NCBI GenBank assembly: GCA_002733605.1
Contig: NVWK01000006.1
Coordinates: 1 to 64,000, forward strand
Direction: 5' to 3'
Source: Robiginitomaculum sp.
GTDB lineage: Bacteria; Pseudomonadota; Alphaproteobacteria; Caulobacterales; Maricaulaceae
DNA length: 64,000 bases
Below are positions 23,328 to 34,272 of this stretch, one piece after another (the stretch's first letter is position 1; each line of letters starts with the position of its first letter). Made by a program: the position numbers and the translations under genes. The notes beneath the pieces are model-generated. The model saw nothing but the letters and a program-made list of their open reading frames with translations, was not told where the DNA came from and ran no database searches.

Positions 23328-23431
23328 TATGCGCCAAATAAGGATACACCCTGAGGGTGAATTCCTTTTTGAGGATTCATTTGGCCAAGCACGCCAATTT
23401 AGGGCATAAGAAAGGAAAACGGGAGGACGAG

Positions 23432-25111
23432 ATGGCGAAACAAACGGAAAATTTGGGCAAAAAAGCGGCCGAAAGCACAACTGCGGTCAATGGTATGATC
23501 GGGATACAGCGTGGGGAATTGATAAAATCTCTTGGTATTCTTGTCGGGCACGCGATTAAACAACCTGCACCGCTTGCAAAAAACCTGGTCAATTACGGCA
23601 AAGAAATGGGCCAGATTGTACGCGGGAAATCCGAACTGGCACCGGATCGCCGTGATCGCCGTTTCCAGGATCCGACCTGGCATAAGAACAAAGCCTATAA
23701 ATACGGTCTACAATCCTGGCTCGCCATGCGTAACGGATTTGAAGGCTGGATCGAGGACAGCGGCATTTCGCGCGCCGATAAAGCCCGCGCCAATTTCGTC
23801 CTAGAAATTTTAGTGGACTCGTTTGCGCCGACCAATACTTTGTTGGGCAATCCGGCTGCCATGAAACGCATGTACGAAACCGGCGGCATGTCCGTGGTCA
23901 GGGGTATTCAAAACGCCTATGATGATTTGCGCAATAATGGCGGCATGCCGTCCATGGTCGATAACAGCAAGTTTGAGGTGGGCAAAAATCTGGCCACCAC
24001 ACCGGGCAGTGTCGTGTTTAAAAACGAGATGATCGAGATCATCCAGTACAAACCGACCACCGAAAAAGTGCACGAAATCCCGTTGGTGATTGTGCCGCCA
24101 CAAATCAATAAATTTTACGCCAATGATTTGTCACCGGGCAAAAGCATCGTCAAATATTTCACGGCGCAAGGCTACCAGATATTTGCGGTCAGTTGGCGCA
24201 ACCCGCAACGCCAGCACTCCCATTGGGGGCTTGAAAATTATGTGCAGTCCCTGATCGAAGCCACCGATGCGGTTATGAAAATTACCCGCTCCAAGAAAAT
24301 CAATATTTCCGGTGCCTGTTCCGGCGGCATGACCTTGGCCTCGTTCCTCAGCGAATTGGCTGCGCGCGGCGATGACCGCGTCAATTGTTTCACAACCATG
24401 GTGACCGTACTTGATCCCAAGAAAACCGACAGCGATGCCGGATTGTTCGCAAGTGACGCCGGCATCGAAGCTGCGCGTAAAATGTCACGTAAAAAAGGCG
24501 TCTTGGACGGGGCACAACTTGCGAAAGTCTTTGCATGGATGCGTCCCAACGATTTGATCTGGAACTATGTGGTCAATAATTATCTGTTGGGCGAAGATCC
24601 GCCCGCCTTTGATGTATTGTATTGGAATGGCGATACAACAAATCTACCCGCACAATTGCATTCCGATTATCTGGATATGTTCTCGGACGAACGCTTTGTC
24701 GAAGGTAGTAATTTCGAGTTCATGGGCAACACGATTGATTTGAAAAAAGTCAAACAGGATTGCTTTATGCTGGCGGCAGTCACCGACCATATTACCCCGT
24801 GGCGCGCCAATTACCGCAATATAGCTTTGTTTGGCGGCAAGGTTGACTTTGTCCTCTCCAATGCGGGCCATATTCAGGCCCTGCTCAACCCACCGGGAAA
24901 TCCGAAGTCCAAATTTTTCACCAATAAAAACATCCCCGAAACATCCGACGAATGGTTGGACGGCGCCGAAGAAAATGCAGGCTCATGGTGGCCCTATTGG
25001 GACAAATGGCTGCAAAAGCGCTCTGGCGGCTTTAAAAATGCTCCGAGAAAGCTTGGCAACAAAGCCTTTCCGCCTACGGTGCAAGCCCCCGGTGAATACG
25101 TATTTACTTAA
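23432..25111 (+). CDS. phaC: Poly(3-hydroxyalkanoate) synthase, class II-like
   Basis: Lipase-like box GACSGGMT; PPQINKFYANDLSPGKS, KVFAWMRPNDLIWNYVVNNYLLG, VTDHITPW, LSNAGHIQALLNPPGNPK. Confidence 0.95.
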   Translation: MAKQTENLGKKAAESTTAVNGMIGIQRGELIKSLGILVGHAIKQPAPLAKNLVNYGKEMGQIVRGKSELAPDRRDRRFQDPTWHKNKAYKYGLQSWLAMRNGFEGWIEDSGISRADKARANFVLEILVDSFAPTNTLLGNPAAMKRMYETGGMSVVRGIQNAYDDLRNNGGMPSMVDNSKFEVGKNLATTPGSVVFKNEMIEIIQYKPTTEKVHEIPLVIVPPQINKFYANDLSPGKSIVKYFTAQGYQIFAVSWRNPQRQHSHWGLENYVQSLIEATDAVMKITRSKKINISGACSGGMTLASFLSELAARGDDRVNCFTTMVTVLDPKKTDSDAGLFASDAGIEAARKMSRKKGVLDGAQLAKVFAWMRPNDLIWNYVVNNYLLGEDPPAFDVLYWNGDTTNLPAQLHSDYLDMFSDERFVEGSNFEFMGNTIDLKKVKQDCFMLAAVTDHITPWRANYRNIALFGGKVDFVLSNAGHIQALLNPPGNPKSKFFTNKNIPETSDEWLDGAEENAGSWWPYWDKWLQKRSGGFKNAPRKLGNKAFPPTVQAPGEYVFT

Positions 25112-25162
25112 AAAAACCAGATAAGCCCCAGATAAGCCCCAACGAAAAAAGGTCAAACCTCT

Positions 25163-26035
25163 ATGCCAAATCTACCCCACATCACCTACACAAAAGTAGG
25201 CAATCAGAAGCTTCGCACCGCTGTTTGGAAGGGCGTGGACAAGGGCGAAGGCAAGCGTACACCTTTATTATTTTTCAATGGCATCGGGGCTAATCTGGAA
25301 ATCGCACAGGCTTTTGCCGACCATTTCACCGGCCGCGATATTATCACCTTTGACATGCCCGGTATTGGCGGATCGCCTGATCCAAAAATTCCCTATCGTC
25401 CATGGTGGGCGGCCAATGCGGCCAAGCAGATTTTGCAAAAACACGGCTATGATAAAGTCGACGTGTTGGGCGTAAGCTGGGGCGGCGGCATGGCCCAGCA
25501 ATTTGCTTTCCAGTGCAAGAAAATGACCAACCGGCTGATCTTGTGCGCTACATCTCCGGGGACGATTATGGTGCCGGGCGATATCCGCGCCATTTCCAAA
25601 ATGGCGTCTCCGAAACGCTATATCAATAAAGACTATTTGGCCCAGCATTTCGAAACCCTGTACGGGGATAGCGAAGAAGGCTTTGGCATGTTTTCCGAGC
25701 ACATGGTGCCGCCAAGCCTGAAGGGCTATCTGTTCCAGCTTATGGCGATGGCTGGATGGTCAAGTCTGCCGTTTTTACGGTTTTTACGAGTGCCGACCCT
25801 GATCATCGCTGGCGACCGTGACCATATTGTGCCGCTGGCTAATGCCCATATTTTGAAATTTATGATCAAGGGCTCGCAAATGTATGAATTTGAAGATGCA
25901 GGGCATTTGTTCTTGCTGACCAAGCGCGATGAGAGCATCCAGATCATTCGGGATTTCTTCGGCGAACAAGAAGTTGATCTCCCCGAAAAAAAGCAGGCTG
26001 AGCTTGCGCCGCTCAAAAAAAGCGCAGCCGCTTAA
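25163..26035 (+). CDS. phaZ: Intracellular poly(3-hydroxyalkanoate) depolymerase (alpha/beta hydrolase)
   Basis: LLFFNGIGANLEIAQAFADHF, FDMPGIGGS, VLGVSWGGGMAQQFAF, ATSPGTIMVPG, AGDRDHIVPL; follows phaC. Confidence 0.9.
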   Translation: MPNLPHITYTKVGNQKLRTAVWKGVDKGEGKRTPLLFFNGIGANLEIAQAFADHFTGRDIITFDMPGIGGSPDPKIPYRPWWAANAAKQILQKHGYDKVDVLGVSWGGGMAQQFAFQCKKMTNRLILCATSPGTIMVPGDIRAISKMASPKRYINKDYLAQHFETLYGDSEEGFGMFSEHMVPPSLKGYLFQLMAMAGWSSLPFLRFLRVPTLIIAGDRDHIVPLANAHILKFMIKGSQMYEFEDAGHLFLLTKRDESIQIIRDFFGEQEVDLPEKKQAELAPLKKSAAA

Positions 26036-26069
26036 AACCTAGACGTCTCAACAAATACAGGAGAGCCTG

Positions 26070-26576
26070 ATGGCAAACCGTAAAGACAGAAAATCAAAGC
26101 CAGCCACTGGCGATACTGCCCGCAAAATCTGGCTTGCCGGTATTGGTGCCTATGGCCGTGCGTTCAGCGAAGCCCAAGGCTCGCTTGCCAAGGTCACCAA
26201 AGGCTCCGGTAAAATGTTTGACGATCTCGTCCAGAAGGGCGAAGTGATCGAAACCATGGTCACGGTCAAAAGCAAAGATGTAGCTGATGACGTGAAAGAC
26301 ATGGCCCATGACGTCATGGACAAAGTTGGCGGTGGCCTCGACATGGATGACCGCATTGCCAGAATGCGCTCCCGTTTACGCCGTTCTGATGGATCAGACA
26401 TGCACGATATGGAAACCCGTCTTGACGCAATGGAAGCGAAACTGGACGAAATTTTAAAGCTGTTAAAGCCTAAAAAACCGGTGGCCAAAAAGCCCACTCC
26501 CAAAAAACGAGCGCCTCGCAAGGCAGCAACGGCCAAAACGGCCAAGAAGAAACCCGCCTCCAAAGCGAAAAAATAG
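26070..26576 (+). CDS. Phasin family protein (PhaF/PhaI-like)
   Basis: ARKIWLAGIGAYGRAFSEAQG...FDDLVQKGEVIE motif and Lys/Ala/Pro-rich C-terminal tail. Confidence 0.88.
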   Translation: MANRKDRKSKPATGDTARKIWLAGIGAYGRAFSEAQGSLAKVTKGSGKMFDDLVQKGEVIETMVTVKSKDVADDVKDMAHDVMDKVGGGLDMDDRIARMRSRLRRSDGSDMHDMETRLDAMEAKLDEILKLLKPKKPVAKKPTPKKRAPRKAATAKTAKKKPASKAKK

Positions 26577-26582
26577 AGACCG

Positions 26583-27254
26583 ATGGTAGGGGGCCCGACA
26601 CAACGTTCAAAAACCAAGGAGAAAATCCTGAGCACCGCGCTTGCTTTGCTTAATAATGAGGGCGAGCCAAATATTTCCTCTGTCGATATTGCCGCTGTCA
26701 TGGAAATTTCCCCCGGCAATCTCTATTACCATTACAAGGGCAAAGACGTCATCATCGAAGAACTGTTCGCAGATTTCGAAGACGAGTTCCGCCAAGTCCT
26801 CGGCGCTCCGGTCAACAAAGCCCTCGCCATCGAAGACAACTGGATTTTCTTATATATCATTTTCGAAGAAATCTTTGATTTCCGGTTTTTCTATTTCAAC
26901 CTGACCGCATTACTGGAACGTATCCCGACCCTGCGCCCAAAATTTTCCCGACTTCTGGCCCTGATGCAACGCACCTTCGAAGGTCTGTTCACAAATCTGG
27001 AACAGGGGGGATATCTGGTATTCCGCCCTGACGAAAAACGCATATTGGCCGAGCGCTTAACCGCCCATTTTACCTATTGGCTGTCCTACACCCAATTGCG
27101 TGGCTATGAAGGGCAGGTACCGAACGCGACGCCCAAATCCCTGATCCACGAAGGCGTCTATGCGGCGCTCACGCAAATCATTCCCTATTGGGGTGAAAAC
27201 AGCGAGCCTTACGCCGAGCTTTTAAAAGAATTTAAAGACGAGCAGGCAGGGTAG
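26583..27254 (+). CDS. phaD: TetR family regulator, PhaD-like
   Basis: RSKTKEKILSTALALLNNEGEPNISSVDIAAVMEISPGNLYYHYKGKDVIIEELF; terminal gene of PHA cluster. Confidence 0.85.
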   Translation: MVGGPTQRSKTKEKILSTALALLNNEGEPNISSVDIAAVMEISPGNLYYHYKGKDVIIEELFADFEDEFRQVLGAPVNKALAIEDNWIFLYIIFEEIFDFRFFYFNLTALLERIPTLRPKFSRLLALMQRTFEGLFTNLEQGGYLVFRPDEKRILAERLTAHFTYWLSYTQLRGYEGQVPNATPKSLIHEGVYAALTQIIPYWGENSEPYAELLKEFKDEQAG

Positions 27255-27312
27255 ATCGCCCTTTTCAAAAAACATCTTGACGTTGCTCGTATTCCCCGCC
27301 ACAGTTGTTGCA

Positions 27313-27429
27313 CTCATTAAGACCAGTGGAGGGATAGGCCCTTTGATGCTGGAGCAACCCCGAAAACGCAGTGCGATTTCGGACAGGTGCTAAGTCCTAC
27401 GGCGGTTTTTTAAACCATCGATAAATGAG
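27313..27429 (+). ncRNA. SAM-I family (S-box) riboswitch aptamer
   Basis: AGTGGAGGGATAGGCCCTTTGATGCTGGAGCAACC ... AGGTGCTAAGTCC core; P1 CTCATT (27313-27318) / AATGAG (27424-27429); upstream of metX. Confidence 0.88.
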
Positions 27430-27501
27430 AGAGAAGGCAATCGCCTTGATCTTTTCATTTATCATACCCGAAGATTTAGCCCGCAAAGCAGGACTTGTGC
27501 G

Positions 27502-28476
27502 ATGGCGCGTGACGTTGAAGTGTTTTTAGGCGACCATGTTTTAGAACATGGCGATACGCTCGAAGCCGACCTTGTCTGCGGACGTCTATACGGCAAAGCT
27601 GGCGCACCTGTGATTGTGATCCCGGGCGGGATTTCCGCCTCGCGCTTTATTGCAGACGAACCGGAAACCGGGCCGCAAGTTGGCTCGAACTGGTGGCCGG
27701 AACTGGTCTATGAAGGCGGCCCGATCGATCTTGCACGGTTCCAGATTTTGGGCCTCGATCTGGCCCCGTGCGGCGTCAACGCACAAAAAACCCTGACGAT
27801 TACCACCAATGACCAAGCCAAACGGCTCGCCGCTCTTTTGGATCATTTAGAAATTGCCAGGGTCGAAGCCATGATCGGCACCAGCTATGGCGGCATGGTG
27901 TCTCTGGCATTCGCGCAAAATTATCCAGACCGCTTGGGACGTTTATGCCTGTTAGGTGCGACCCACAAACCCTTCCCGATGGGCGTTGGTTTACGCGGTA
28001 TTCAAAGACGGATCGTGAAATTCGCAACCGAGGTCGGACAGCCCGAAGAGGGGTTAAAACTGGCGCGGCAACTGGCCATGTCCACCTACCGTTCTGCGGC
28101 CGAGTTCACCACACGCTTTGACGGCAAGCCAACGCAAACGGGGCCTTTCAGCTTCGATGTCTGTGACTATCTCGTAGCTTGCGGTAGTCGTTACCCGGAG
28201 AGCATGCCCGTGCAACGGTTTATGGCGCTCTCGGAATCGATTGATCTACACCACGTCGATCCGGCCAAGATCACAACGCCGACACTTTTAATCGCGACCC
28301 GCTCCGACCAACTGGCACCGCCTTCGGAAATCCGAATTTTGTGTGATGCCCTCGCAGGGCCGGCAGATATGGTCACAATCGATTCTCTTTACGGGCACGA
28401 TTCCTTTTTAAAGGAGTCCGAAGTTTTAGGCCCGCTCCTGTCAGACTTTATTTCGGAGGCTCGCCATGCCGCGTAA
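27502..28476 (+). CDS. metX: Homoserine O-acyltransferase (MetX family)
   Basis: alpha/beta hydrolase fold with IGTSYGGMVSLAFAQNYPDR; YGHDSFLKE; first gene of met operon. Confidence 0.85.
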   Translation: MARDVEVFLGDHVLEHGDTLEADLVCGRLYGKAGAPVIVIPGGISASRFIADEPETGPQVGSNWWPELVYEGGPIDLARFQILGLDLAPCGVNAQKTLTITTNDQAKRLAALLDHLEIARVEAMIGTSYGGMVSLAFAQNYPDRLGRLCLLGATHKPFPMGVGLRGIQRRIVKFATEVGQPEEGLKLARQLAMSTYRSAAEFTTRFDGKPTQTGPFSFDVCDYLVACGSRYPESMPVQRFMALSESIDLHHVDPAKITTPTLLIATRSDQLAPPSEIRILCDALAGPADMVTIDSLYGHDSFLKESEVLGPLLSDFISEARHAA

Positions 28477-29632
28477 AACACCTGAAAGCGCAACAATCTG
28501 CGTCTCGTCGCAAATCGGAAATGATCCGGCCTTTGGCGCTGTCACCCCACCGCTGTATTTATCCAGCACCTATAAATTCGCAGGCCTCGACCAGATGGGC
28601 CAGTATGATTATGGCCGTAGCGGCAACCCCAACCGCGACGCCCTCGCCACAGTTGTGGCCCAGATGGAAGGCGGTGCAGGCGCCGCCGTCACCTCGTCCG
28701 GCATGGCGGCGATTGATTTGGCGCTCAATCTTGTGCCCCGTAACGGGCTGGTTGTCGCGCCCCATGATTGCTATGGTGGCACTTACCGCCTGCTCGAAGC
28801 CCGTCAGAAACAAGGCCGGTTTCAGGTTGAATTTATCAACCAAACCAGCGAACGCGCCGTTGAACGCGCTTTGGATGAAAAACCGGCTCTGGTACTGATC
28901 GAAACACCCAGCAATCCGCTGATGCGCGTTGTCGATGTGGCGGGCTTGTCCAAGGCGGCTCACCATGTGGGGGCCATTGTCGTCTGTGACAACACATTTT
29001 TATCACCGGCCCGACAATTACCATTGGCCCTCGGAGCTGATATTGTTGTCCATTCCTCGACGAAATACATTAATGGCCACAGTGATGTGGTCGGCGGCAT
29101 TGTTGTCGCCAAAGACGAGGCCGTACTTGAAACACTGACGTGGTGGGCCAATTGTACCGGCGTCACCGGTGCCCCGTTTGACAGTTTCCTGACCTTGCGC
29201 GGTCTTCGCACATTGCATGCGCGTATGGATGTCCAAGAAGCCAATGCGATTAAAATTGCTGAGTTCCTGCACGCCCATCCGCAAGTATCCAAAGTCTATT
29301 ATCCGGGCTTGGCTTCCGATCCGGGCTATGCTCTGGCCCAAAGACAACAAAGCGGGCCGGGCGCAATGCTCAGTTTCGAGCTGGCGGGAAGCCGCGAAGA
29401 TGTTGGAAAATTCCTGTCCGATACCCACGTATTCCAATTGGCAGAGAGCCTTGGCGGCACCGAAAGCCTGATCTGTCATCCGGCCTCCATGACCCATCGG
29501 GCCATGACGCCAGAGGCGCGCGCCACTGCCGGCATCGGCGAAACCCTGATTCGCCTGTCCGTAGGCCTTGAAAGTTCAAGCGATCAACTTGCTGAACTTA
29601 AGGTTTTATTTACACCTATCTCTAAGACTTGA
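28466..29632 (+). CDS. metZ: Cystathionine gamma-synthase / O-succinylhomoserine sulfhydrylase family PLP enzyme
   Basis: YDYGRSGNPNRDAL, SSGMAAIDLAL, HSSTKYINGHSDVVGG; RLSVGLE. MetB versus MetZ specificity not resolvable here. Confidence 0.88.
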   Translation: MPRKTPESATICVSSQIGNDPAFGAVTPPLYLSSTYKFAGLDQMGQYDYGRSGNPNRDALATVVAQMEGGAGAAVTSSGMAAIDLALNLVPRNGLVVAPHDCYGGTYRLLEARQKQGRFQVEFINQTSERAVERALDEKPALVLIETPSNPLMRVVDVAGLSKAAHHVGAIVVCDNTFLSPARQLPLALGADIVVHSSTKYINGHSDVVGGIVVAKDEAVLETLTWWANCTGVTGAPFDSFLTLRGLRTLHARMDVQEANAIKIAEFLHAHPQVSKVYYPGLASDPGYALAQRQQSGPGAMLSFELAGSREDVGKFLSDTHVFQLAESLGGTESLICHPASMTHRAMTPEARATAGIGETLIRLSVGLESSSDQLAELKVLFTPISKT

Positions 29633-29638
29633 TTTAGC

Positions 29639-30538
29639 ATGGCCAAACACTCAGATATATCCGACCCCACAGTAGCGACACCTGCAAATTTGCGGGTAAG
29701 CTTTGAATTTTTCCCGCCTAAAACCGAGAAGATGCAAATCAATCTATGGGAGAGCATCCAGAAACTGGAAACCCTCAATCCCGATTTTGTCTCGGTTACC
29801 TACGGGGCAGGCGGCTCGACCCGCGAACGCACCCACGAGACAGTGGCTAAAATCGCCAAGGAAACCGGCTTAAGCGCCGCCGCCCATCTCACCTGTGTGG
29901 GCTCTGAGCGCGGCGAAATCGACGAGATCGCCCAAGCCTATTGGGACGCGGGTGTGCGTCATATTGTTGCCCTGCGCGGTGACCCGGAAGGCGGCATTGG
30001 TACTGCGTATACCCCGACACAAAATGGTTATGGGTACAGCGATGATTTGGTCGCGGGTTTGCAAAAAATCGCCCCGTTCGATATTTCCGTCAGTGCTTAT
30101 CCTGAGCTACATCCCGAAAGCAAAAACTGGGATACGGAAATTGATAATTTAAAGCGTAAAGTCGACGCAGGTGCCAGCCGCGCCATCACCCAGTTTTTCT
30201 TCTCTGCCGATACATTTTTCCGCTTCCAAGACCGGGTGCTGGATGCAGGCATTACCATCCCGATCATTCCGGGCCTGATGTTACAGCCTAATTACAAGGG
30301 CTTGAAACGCATGTCGGACATGTGCAAGATTTCAATTCCGGATGCTTATCACGAGCTTTTTTCTGATCTTGATGATGATCCGAAAACCCGCCAACTTCTG
30401 ACCGCAAATGCGGCTTCGGAACTAGCCCGAAACTTACGCACAGGTGGTGTGCGTCATTTTCATTTTTACACTCTTAACAAAGCTGATTTAGCCTTTATGG
30501 TGTGCAAAATTCTTGGCCTCCAAGCCCAACAAAAATAG
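29639..30538 (+). CDS. metF: 5,10-methylenetetrahydrofolate reductase
   Basis: SFEFFPPKTEK, VSVTYGAGGSTRERT, AHLTCVG, ALRGDPEGG. Confidence 0.95.
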   Translation: MAKHSDISDPTVATPANLRVSFEFFPPKTEKMQINLWESIQKLETLNPDFVSVTYGAGGSTRERTHETVAKIAKETGLSAAAHLTCVGSERGEIDEIAQAYWDAGVRHIVALRGDPEGGIGTAYTPTQNGYGYSDDLVAGLQKIAPFDISVSAYPELHPESKNWDTEIDNLKRKVDAGASRAITQFFFSADTFFRFQDRVLDAGITIPIIPGLMLQPNYKGLKRMSDMCKISIPDAYHELFSDLDDDPKTRQLLTANAASELARNLRTGGVRHFHFYTLNKADLAFMVCKILGLQAQQK

Positions 30539-30568: not shown

Positions 30569-31645
30569 ATGCCCAAAAAAAATCTGAATGTATGGACACA
30601 TATCGAAGCTGCCATCAAAAACCGCGTATTGGTTTTGGACGGTGCCATGGGCACAATGTTGCAAGGTTACAAATTATCTGAGCAAGATTTCAGGGGCGAA
30701 CAGTTCGCCGATTGGCCAAGTCTGGTGCAGGGCAATAATGATCTGCTCAGCCTGACCAAGCCCGACATTGTCCGCGCCGTCCACGAGACGTTCTTAAGCG
30801 TCGGTGCGGATTTGATCGAAACCAACACATTTAACGCCAACCGGATTAATCAGGCTGAATACGGCATGCAGGATCATGCCGATGAAATGTCCAATGCGAG
30901 CGCCAAACTGGCCCGCGCGGTCGCTGACGAATGGAGCGAGAAAACGCCGGATAAACCCAGAGCTATTTTGGGTGCGCTCGGGCCGCTCAATAAAACATTG
31001 TCTCTCTCGCCCAAGGTTGAAGATGCGGGCTACCGCGCCGTCACCTTTGATGAAGTGGTAGGCGCCTATAAATCGCAAATTCTGGCCATGTTTGACGAGG
31101 TCGATGCATTTTTGGTGGAAACGGTTTTTGACACGCTCAATTGCAAAGCCGCCATTTTTGCCCTGAAAGACGTGTTTGCGGAGAAAGGGCAGGAGCTTCC
31201 TATTCTGATCTCCGGTACAATCACAGACAGATCGGGCCGTACATTATCAGGCCAGACAACGGAGGCCTTCTGGACATCCATTGCCCATGCCAAACCGTTT
31301 GCGGTGGGGCTAAACTGTGCTTTGGGCGCAGAAGAATTACGCCCCTATATACAAGTGTTGTCAAAAATTTCCGATACCTATGTCTTGGCCTATCCCAATG
31401 CAGGCTTGCCCAATGCGTTCGGGGAATATGATCAGACGCCTGAGGAAATGGCCGCGCTCGTTGCCTCATGGGCCGAGGAAAAAATGGTCAATATTCTGGG
31501 CGGATGTTGTGGCTCGACCCCTGAACATATTGGCGCGATTGCCAGAAATATCGAGGGCATAAATCCGCGCACACCGCCAAAAATTGCGCCTGCCTTACGC
31601 TTGTCTGGCCTAGAGCCATTTATGCTAGCCGGGTCGTTAACATGA
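30569..31645 (+). CDS. metH: Methionine synthase, homocysteine S-methyltransferase part (split MetH)
   Basis: [49 protein letters not shown]. Confidence 0.95.
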
Positions 31646-34272
31646 GCACGCAATCTGCAAACTTTATCAATATTGGTGAGCGCACCAATGTGGCCGGCTC
31701 CGCCAAGTTCAAACGCCTGATCGTTGAACGCGAGTTCGAGCAAGCCTTGGCCATTGCCCTGCAACAAGTCGAAAACGGTGCCCAGATCATCGACATCAAT
31801 ATGGATGATGGCCTGATTGACGGTGTCGAGGTGATGACCACTTATCTCAACCTGATCGCCAGCGAGCCGGATATTTCACGTGTGCCGATCATGATCGATA
31901 GCTCGAAATGGGAAGTGATCGAGGCGGGCTTGAAATGTGTACAGGGCAAGGCTGTCGTCAATTCTATTTCCATGAAAGAAGGCGAAGCCGAATTTTTGAA
32001 ACACGCTCGTAAAGTCCGTCAATACGGCGCTGCTGCTGTGATTATGGCGTTTGACGAACAGGGCCAAGCCGAAACCGCAGAGCATAAATTTGAAATCTGT
32101 AAACGGGCCTATGATCTCCTGACCCAAAAAATCGACTTCCCGCCCGAAGACATTATTTTCGATCCCAATATTTTCGCAGTCGCAACCGGGATTGAGGAAC
32201 ATAACAATTATGCGGTTGCGTTTTTCGATGCCTGTAAGCGCATTAAGGCCGAGCTTCCCCATGCACGAATTTCCGGCGGTCTGTCCAATGTCAGCTTTGC
32301 CTTTCGTGGCAATAATATGCTCCGCGAAGCCATGCATAGCGTGTTCCTCTATCACGCTATTCCGGCTGGCCTCGACATGGCCATCGTCAATGCGGGCCAG
32401 CTGGCCATATATGATGATATCCCCGATGATCTGCGCGAGCGGGTCGAGGACGTCATTTTAAACCGGCGCCCCGACGCAACCGACCGCTTGCTCGACATTG
32501 CCGATAACTACCGTGGCGGCAAAAGCAAAGCCAAGGTCGAGGATGAAAAATGGCGAGAAGGCACTGTCGGCGAGCGCTTGTCCCATGCGTTGGTGCGCGG
32601 CATTTCCAAATACATTGTCGAAGACACCGAAGAAGCCCGTCTTGAAGCCAAGCGGCCTCTACATGTGATCGAAGGCCCGTTAATGGACGGGATGGGCGTG
32701 GTGGGTGATCTGTTCGGGGCCGGTAAAATGTTCTTGCCACAAGTGGTGAAATCCGCGCGGGTGATGAAACAGGCGGTTGCCCATTTAATGCCGTATATGG
32801 ACGCAGAAAAAGAGGCCCTCGGATTGGTCGACCAGTCCAATGGCCGGATTGTCATGGCCACCGTCAAGGGCGACGTGCACGATATTGGCAAAAACATTGT
32901 CGGCGTCGTGTTGCAATGTAATGGCTATGAAGTGATTGATCTGGGCGTTTTGGTGCCGTGCGAGAAAATCCTCGAAGCCGCCCGTGAACACAAGGCGGAC
33001 ATGATCGGCCTGTCCGGCCTGATCACGCCTAGCCTTGACGAAATGGTCTATGTGGCGAGCGAGATGCAACGGTTGAAAATGGATATCCCTTTGCTGATTG
33101 GCGGAGCGACAACCAGTAAAATCCACACGGCGGTTAAAATCGAACCGGCCTATGACGCCGGCACGATTGTCTATGTGGCGGATGCTTCACGGGCTGTCGG
33201 GGTTGTCGGTACATTATTGGGCGATGGTGCAAAGACCTACGGACAGGATATCCGTGTTGAATATAAGAAGGCGCGCGAAACCCATTTACGCGGCCAAACC
33301 AAAAAGAAACGCGCCAACATCGCCAAAGCCCGTGCCAATAAATACCAATTAAAAGACACAAAATATGTGCCACCTACGCCTATATTCTTGGGCGTAAAGA
33401 CCTTTGTTGACTATGACCTTGCCAAAGTGCGCGATTACATCGACTGGACACCTTTCTTTGCTACATGGGAATTGAAAGGCCGCTATCCCGCCATTCTTGA
33501 GAACAATGTTTACGGAGAGGCCGCGCGCGATCTGTTCAAAGACGCACAAGCCATGTTGGATAAAATCATTGCCGGGAAATGGGTGACGGCCCAAGCCACT
33601 ATCGGCTTCTGGCCGGCCAGTCCCGACGGTGATGATATGAAGCTTTACACAGACGAGACCCGGCAAACCCCTCTGGCCACTTTCCATACCCTGCGCCAGC
33701 AAATTGAAAAGTCAGAGGGCAAACCAAATTACGCGCTTTCAGATTTCCTCAACCCCGAGGGCGATTATGTTGGCGGCTTCTGCGTCACCGCCGGTTTGGG
33801 AGAACAGGGCCGCATCGAAGCCTACAAACAGGACAAAGACGATTATAGTGCCATCTTGTTCCAGTCCCTAACCGACCGTCTGGCCGAAGCCATGGCCGAG
33901 CATATGCATGAGCGTGTCCGGCGCGAGTTCTGGGGCTATGAGAGCGGTGCACATACAAGCAGCGAAGATTTAATTGCCGAAAAATATGTCGGTATTCGTC
34001 CAGCCCCCGGCTATCCGGCCCAGCCCGACCATACGGAAAAAACCACATTGTTTGAACTGTTGGGCGGTGAAGACGCAACTGGGGTTCAATTGACCGAGAG
34101 CCTTGCCATGACACCGGCTTCCAGCGTATCCGGTCTCTATCTCTCCCATCCTGAAAGCCTGTATTTCGGTGTCGGGAAAATCGAGAAAGATCAGGTGGAA
34201 GACTACGCCAAACGCAAAGGCATGCCCATGCGCGAAGCTGAACGCTGGCTCGCTCCGATCTTGAATTATTAG
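31642..34272 (+). CDS. metH: Methionine synthase, pterin/cobalamin/AdoMet-activation part (split MetH)
   Basis: [46 protein letters not shown] (B12 DxHxxG), [15 protein letters not shown] activation domain. Confidence 0.97.

Follow-up and report, generated by a model that had tools for sequence, protein, structure and literature searches.

The DNA analysed here (the window, 64,000 nucleotides) carries on its forward (+) strand a methionine operon of five genes preceded by a structured leader. The first gene, metX (27502 to 28476), encodes a homoserine O-acyltransferase, of the O-succinyl type by NCBIfam (NF006449, 301.6 bits, cut-off 296). It is followed by a metZ/metB-type Cys/Met PLP enzyme gene (28466 to 29632), for which TIGR02080 (cystathionine gamma-synthase) was the best match (560.6 bits, cut-off 504.6), by metF (29639 to 30538; TIGR00676, 321.9 bits, cut-off 293.7), and by metH in two parts, the first with the homocysteine S-methyltransferase domain (30569 to 31645; PF02574, aligning to MetH residues 7–354) and the second with the pterin, B12 and activation domains (31642 to 34272; PF00809, PF02607, PF02310 and PF02965). 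These matches bear out the order metX-metZ-metF-split metH given in the preliminary description. The order of all five genes is kept in five further members of the genus, the six other genomes that were checked keep metX-metZ, and metX is the first gene after the riboswitch in nearly all relatives. A polyhydroxyalkanoate cluster (PHA synthase, alpha/beta hydrolase, phasin and a TetR-type regulator) lies directly upstream, at 23357–27254; the alphaproteobacterial MAG containing locus L032 shares the same neighbourhood, these genes included.

Between this cluster and metX, a putative promoter at 27276–27305 (+), conserved in relatives, consists of a −35 element CTTGACG (27276–27282) and a −10-like element CACAGT (27300–27305), with a 17-nt spacer from TTGACG. 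CTTGAC stands at a near-constant distance from the riboswitch aptamer in all 11 leaders of genera g1 and g2 that were compared; a consensus scan did not call a promoter at 27276–27305. Since this conserved promoter lies just upstream of the aptamer, transcription of the met operon is expected to start at about 27312, in the first bases of stem P1, and the riboswitch would form the very beginning of the transcript. At the other end of the leader, the metX Shine-Dalgarno sequence GCAGGA (27488–27493, +) is located 8 nt upstream of the ATG at 27502.

The whole window was searched against Rfam with cmscan. The results showed a single family above its gathering score, RF00162 (SAM), at 27311–27431 (+), with 75.9 bits (gathering cut-off 44.4), an E-value of 5.1e-16 and all 108 model positions aligned. 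RF00162 was kept as the best family of its clan against SAM-IV and the SAM-I/IV variant, cmscan keeping one family per clan, and the match is the only one in the genome (3.07 Mb). The alignment contains the P1–P4 junction with the core GGUGCNAANUCC and the P2 motif GGAGGGA..GGCCC, and covariation in P1, P2 and P4 was seen, in an alignment of eight leaders, within the window's genus and its sister genus. SAM-II (SAM_alpha, RF00521) is absent from this genome: it was not matched in the window, and its best genomic score was 15.5 bits against a cut-off of 36. The S-box (SAM-I) class proposed earlier is thus upheld by a full-length covariance-model match, and the quoted core, the P1 strands CTCATT/AATGAG, the segment GATAAATGA (27420–27428), its partner at 27455–27463 and the hairpin AAGGC-AATC-GCCTT (27434–27447) all lie where they had been placed. 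Judged by its aptamer, the leader at 27311–27431 is a genuine SAM-I riboswitch, for which SAM binding is predicted. It has in common with RF00162 the whole aptamer, the conserved core, the place before a methionine operon and the P1 3′ strand as a switching strand (GATAAATGAG, 27420–27429, +); it differs in a second switching strand, directed against the SAM-binding core GGTGCTAAGTCC (27386–27397, +), which comprises the P3 3′ strand, J3/4 and the start of the P4 side.

Downstream of the aptamer, the anti-P1 strand TCATTTATC (27455–27463, +) is a perfect 9-bp complement of 27420–27428, a pairing that had been put forward as a mutually exclusive expression platform. The platforms of 32 leaders from the window's family were exchanged among their P1 strands, and the results showed that matched P1/platform pairs (−7.99 kcal/mol) were better than swapped ones (−6.22 kcal/mol; p<2e-4), an advantage that persisted when swaps were confined to genera (p<2e-4), kinship entering these permutation tests through the within-genus version alone. 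Anti-P1 also recurs in families f3, f5 and f188. The alternative pairing therefore covaries in relatives, in agreement with the proposal. In the absence of SAM, anti-P1 would pair with the P1 3′ strand to form one long hairpin around AAGGC-AATC-GCCTT.

This inner hairpin (27434–27447, +), kept in the eight-leader alignment, is followed by GATCTTTTCA and is weakly terminator-like. The earlier statement that no U tract follows the alternative helix holds for the outer helix but fails for the inner hairpin, which together with GATCTTTTCA meets a loose terminator pattern. That match, and its better-fitting counterpart at the corresponding position in genus g2 (GAAGGC-AAC-GCCTTC ACTTCTTTTT), would fit a SAM-I OFF switch working by premature termination, in which P1 would form with SAM and the inner hairpin with its U-rich stretch would terminate transcription, intrinsically or through Rho, and in which without SAM this stretch would fold into the long anti-P1 hairpin. 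We consider this rather unlikely, because the stem has five pairs and its U-run is interrupted, shuffled sequences yield 0.6 such matches per region, and leaders L051, L092 and L094 have no U-run there. Moreover, being located 3′ of the hairpin, the anti-P1 strand leaves it intact and would come too late to prevent intrinsic termination.

A second pairing first appeared in the unconstrained RNAfold prediction, which joined GCTAAGTC (27389–27396) of the core to GATTTAGC (27473–27480), located just 5′ of the Shine-Dalgarno sequence within the anti-core strand AGATTTAGCCCG (27472–27483, +). An unbiased scan was then made with 31 family leaders, in which 12-nt windows were slid along each aptamer and compared with its own platform and with shuffled platforms. 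Complementarity to the platform stood out at only two places in the aptamer. One was the P1 3′ end, with a mean z of −1.63 (t −7.2); the other was the core, with a mean z of −1.29 (t −6.0) overall and −1.95 in genera g1 and g2. Matched cores and platforms also beat swapped ones (p<2e-4; 0.0032 within genus). Among 21 distinct leaders, core position 9 is found as GC, GU, UA and AU pairs and position 6 as UA, CG and UG; changes on both sides occupy 13 cells, above all 500 shuffles and all slid versions, which makes the register unique, with the qualification that the 12-mers for this count were placed by hand and lean it towards structure, whereas the swap and scan tests carry no such bias. Of 22 leaders, 16 have an anti-core that ends 14–21 nt upstream of the start codon, start codons having been assigned by homology and by eye. 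The strand resembles the P3 5′ strand (GCAACC) but reaches further, into J3/4. At the level of sequence, these comparisons show that the platform of this family is built of two covarying alternative pairings, anti-P1 and anti-core.

The anti-core was seen in the window's family alone among the groups compared, and even there several members of genera g11 and g12 and of part of g4 lack a clear one. It was rejected as a general SAM-I feature, since f3, f5 and f188 gave no signal and neither did four SAM-I/metX leaders from a different class. It might be supposed that the P1/anti-P1 exchange alone matters and that the anti-core is kept for some other reason, such as a ribosome standby site or the binding of a protein or tRNA, its complementarity to the core being secondary. 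P1 switching is indeed the rule for SAM-I (PMC3656099, PMC2258182), and anti-P1 is the stronger signal, found also in other families, while some members of this one do without the anti-core. However, an idle pairing would not be expected to show compensation at core positions 6 and 9, nor a matched advantage within genera, and sister families with the same core and the same gene show no such complementarity, so we hold this explanation to be improbable. We lean, with slightly better than even confidence, towards a family-specific platform in which the strand adjoining the Shine-Dalgarno sequence mimics the P3 5′ strand and reaches into J3/4, with the core as its toehold; empty cores would be dismantled and SAM-filled ones protected, and the same strand would then close the ribosome site.

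Overall, the leader is probably a SAM-I OFF switch, acting presumably on translation, in which SAM binding would stop the leader from invading its own aptamer; we infer SAM binding, the level of control and the OFF logic, the last because of the gene set. Without SAM, the anti-core would pair with the core GGTGCTAAGTCC and displace P3 and J3/4, J3/4 being a possible landing place, and would thereby be held off the ribosome site, allowing metX to be translated. With SAM, the core and P1 would be locked and J3/4 occupied, and the released anti-core may pair through its 3′ half (GCCC) with the adjoining Shine-Dalgarno sequence, lowering translation of metX and the operon. Folding energies are consistent with the competition between the two states. 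Relative to the SAM-bound (P1-formed) fold, the alternative fold was 7.65 kcal/mol better than with shuffled platforms, the advantage being found in 27 of 31 leaders (p=7e-7), and the same comparison gave −11.9 versus +8.7 for the window. Because the model makes the alternative fold much the stabler one in the window, switching would have to be under kinetic control.

The step that blocks the Shine-Dalgarno sequence is a weak inference, suggested for some relatives and unsupported in the window. A blocking hairpin formed by the anti-core 3′ half gave p=0.05 in the swap test and 0.03 within genus; for the window the value was 0.48, and no convincing sequestration was predicted there. In several g4/g12 members (L058, L066, L069 and L024), the Shine-Dalgarno sequence is more sequestered in the P1-formed fold than with nearly all shuffles, and when Shine-Dalgarno access in P1-formed and P1-free folds was compared across 64 leaders, a clear OFF response was obtained for some f1 g4/g12 members only. 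Fold-back pairs between anti-core and Shine-Dalgarno sequence include CCCG/CGGG (L093), CCCTA/TAGGG (L052), GTCC/GGAC (L055), CTCC/GGAG (L103) and CCTAA/TTAGG (L062). In the folding model a competing pairing also occurs, as core AAGTCCT (27392–27398) is a perfect 7-nt complement of AGGACTT (27490–27496) at the metX Shine-Dalgarno sequence. A gain in access on forcing the anti-core helix, at first significant (p=2.5e-4), was lost against shuffled platforms (p=0.35) and was discarded.

Control of metX by a leader peptide starting at an ATG within P1 (27424), with the conserved nucleotides serving as codons, was also weighed. The window has a 34-codon frame that begins at this ATG and overlaps the metX start, but among 33 family leaders the frame is not conserved: its end point ranges between 98 nt short of the metX start and an in-frame run into metX, its length is between 2 and 43 codons, and no ribosome site precedes the ATG. 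We rejected this candidate and give it hardly any credence.

SAM-I switching is usually described as a contest over P1. In Bacillus SAM-I riboswitches the exchange concerns P1 only (PMC3656099), and the platform of the window differs by the added core pairing. If the mechanism proposed here is true, the core pairing would tie the ribosome site to ligand occupancy by a second route besides P1, one that can be read directly. No SAM-I platform strand pairing with the core was described in the literature searched, in which subscription journals were thinly covered, so that its novelty is provisional; it seems to be an undescribed way to build a SAM-I switch. Among the closest systems is the met SAM-I riboswitch of Xanthomonas campestris (PMC7270179). 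Translational control is likely in both, and in both the first genes encode a homoserine acyltransferase and a metB-type enzyme, while the third gene is hom in Xanthomonas and metF in the window. In the Xanthomonas platform a Shine-Dalgarno hairpin persists without SAM and is opened by initiator tRNA, whose recognition is not by simple base pairing (PMC7270179). There, the anti-SD/anti-AUG hairpin and the binding of uncharged initiator tRNA were measured, whereas the anti-core of the window is deduced from sequence comparison. By analogy, the window's leader could be a dual sensor of SAM and initiator tRNA, an idea to which the shared riboswitch class and the metX/metB-type first genes lend some plausibility. 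We judge it very unlikely: the sequence bears no sign of it, although the reported recognition does not work by simple complementarity, and no anti-core is present in the platforms taken from another class for comparison.

To place the element taxonomically, 299 genomes of the window's order were surveyed, as had been suggested, and SAM-I was found recurrently, RF00162 being present in 77 of them and in three of the five families. Among 387 genomes sampled evenly across the class it was present in eight. The view that an S-box is taxonomically unusual here therefore stands for Alphaproteobacteria at large but not for the order, where it is typical of the lineage. A survey in 2007 described Alphaproteobacteria as 'almost devoid' of SAM-I and encountered no species that carried the two classes together (PMC2258182); in about 200 proteobacterial genomes surveyed in 2014, SAM-I was not reported among the methionine riboswitches (PMC4239095). 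SAM-II, different in fold, does the same job before metX, metA or hom in related genera of the order and was detected in 94 of the same 299 genomes, exceeding the cut-off in 61. The two classes are nearly exclusive genome by genome, sharing one genome where about 24 were expected (Fisher p=6e-14 by genome and 0.02 by genus, the genus figure being the fairer since genomes are related). The genome with both, G258, is a MAG in fragments (completeness 76%). Its co-occurrence was discounted, as well-assembled genus-mates did not confirm it: of nine searched again, eight had no SAM-II above noise, and G214 had only a match below threshold.

In the MetX tree, the SAM-I-linked sequences of f1, f3 and f5 group together (97/90), with one unlinked sequence among them, and MetX proteins linked to SAM-II in the family of the window fall in another clade (100/100). 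Riboswitch class in the order tracks the lineage of metX and not that of the organism. Locus L007 (G004, f1 g2) combines SAM-I with an f5-type metX, the other members of that f1 genus having the f1 type, which suggests that the leader was transferred together with its metX. With SAM-I and SAM-II filling one role ahead of metX in adjacent genera and almost never occurring together in a genome, the order offers a natural experiment in riboswitch replacement.

Some SAM-I copies stand before other genes. In two f5 g32 genomes (G089 and G099; L081 and L083), a second SAM-I precedes a stand-alone metZ, besides the copy at metX. A second copy in G206 (f3 g18; L084, 397–508) is followed after about 270 nt by an 800-aa frame which by eye resembles a TonB-dependent receptor, possibly a SAM-controlled uptake gene; the first 80 residues of this frame gave no match in a Pfam scan. 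In family f188, from another group of the phylum, most sampled genomes carry SAM-I (L106–L131) upstream of a frame resembling, by eye, threonine synthase (MSESIVRALKCRECGQEY...), the aptamer being followed by GC-rich hairpins with T-runs; if the product is threonine synthase, SAM would control the branch competing for homoserine. Finally, very short SAM-I elements of 83 nt occur before unnamed genes in f79 and f85 of the same class (L144–L146).
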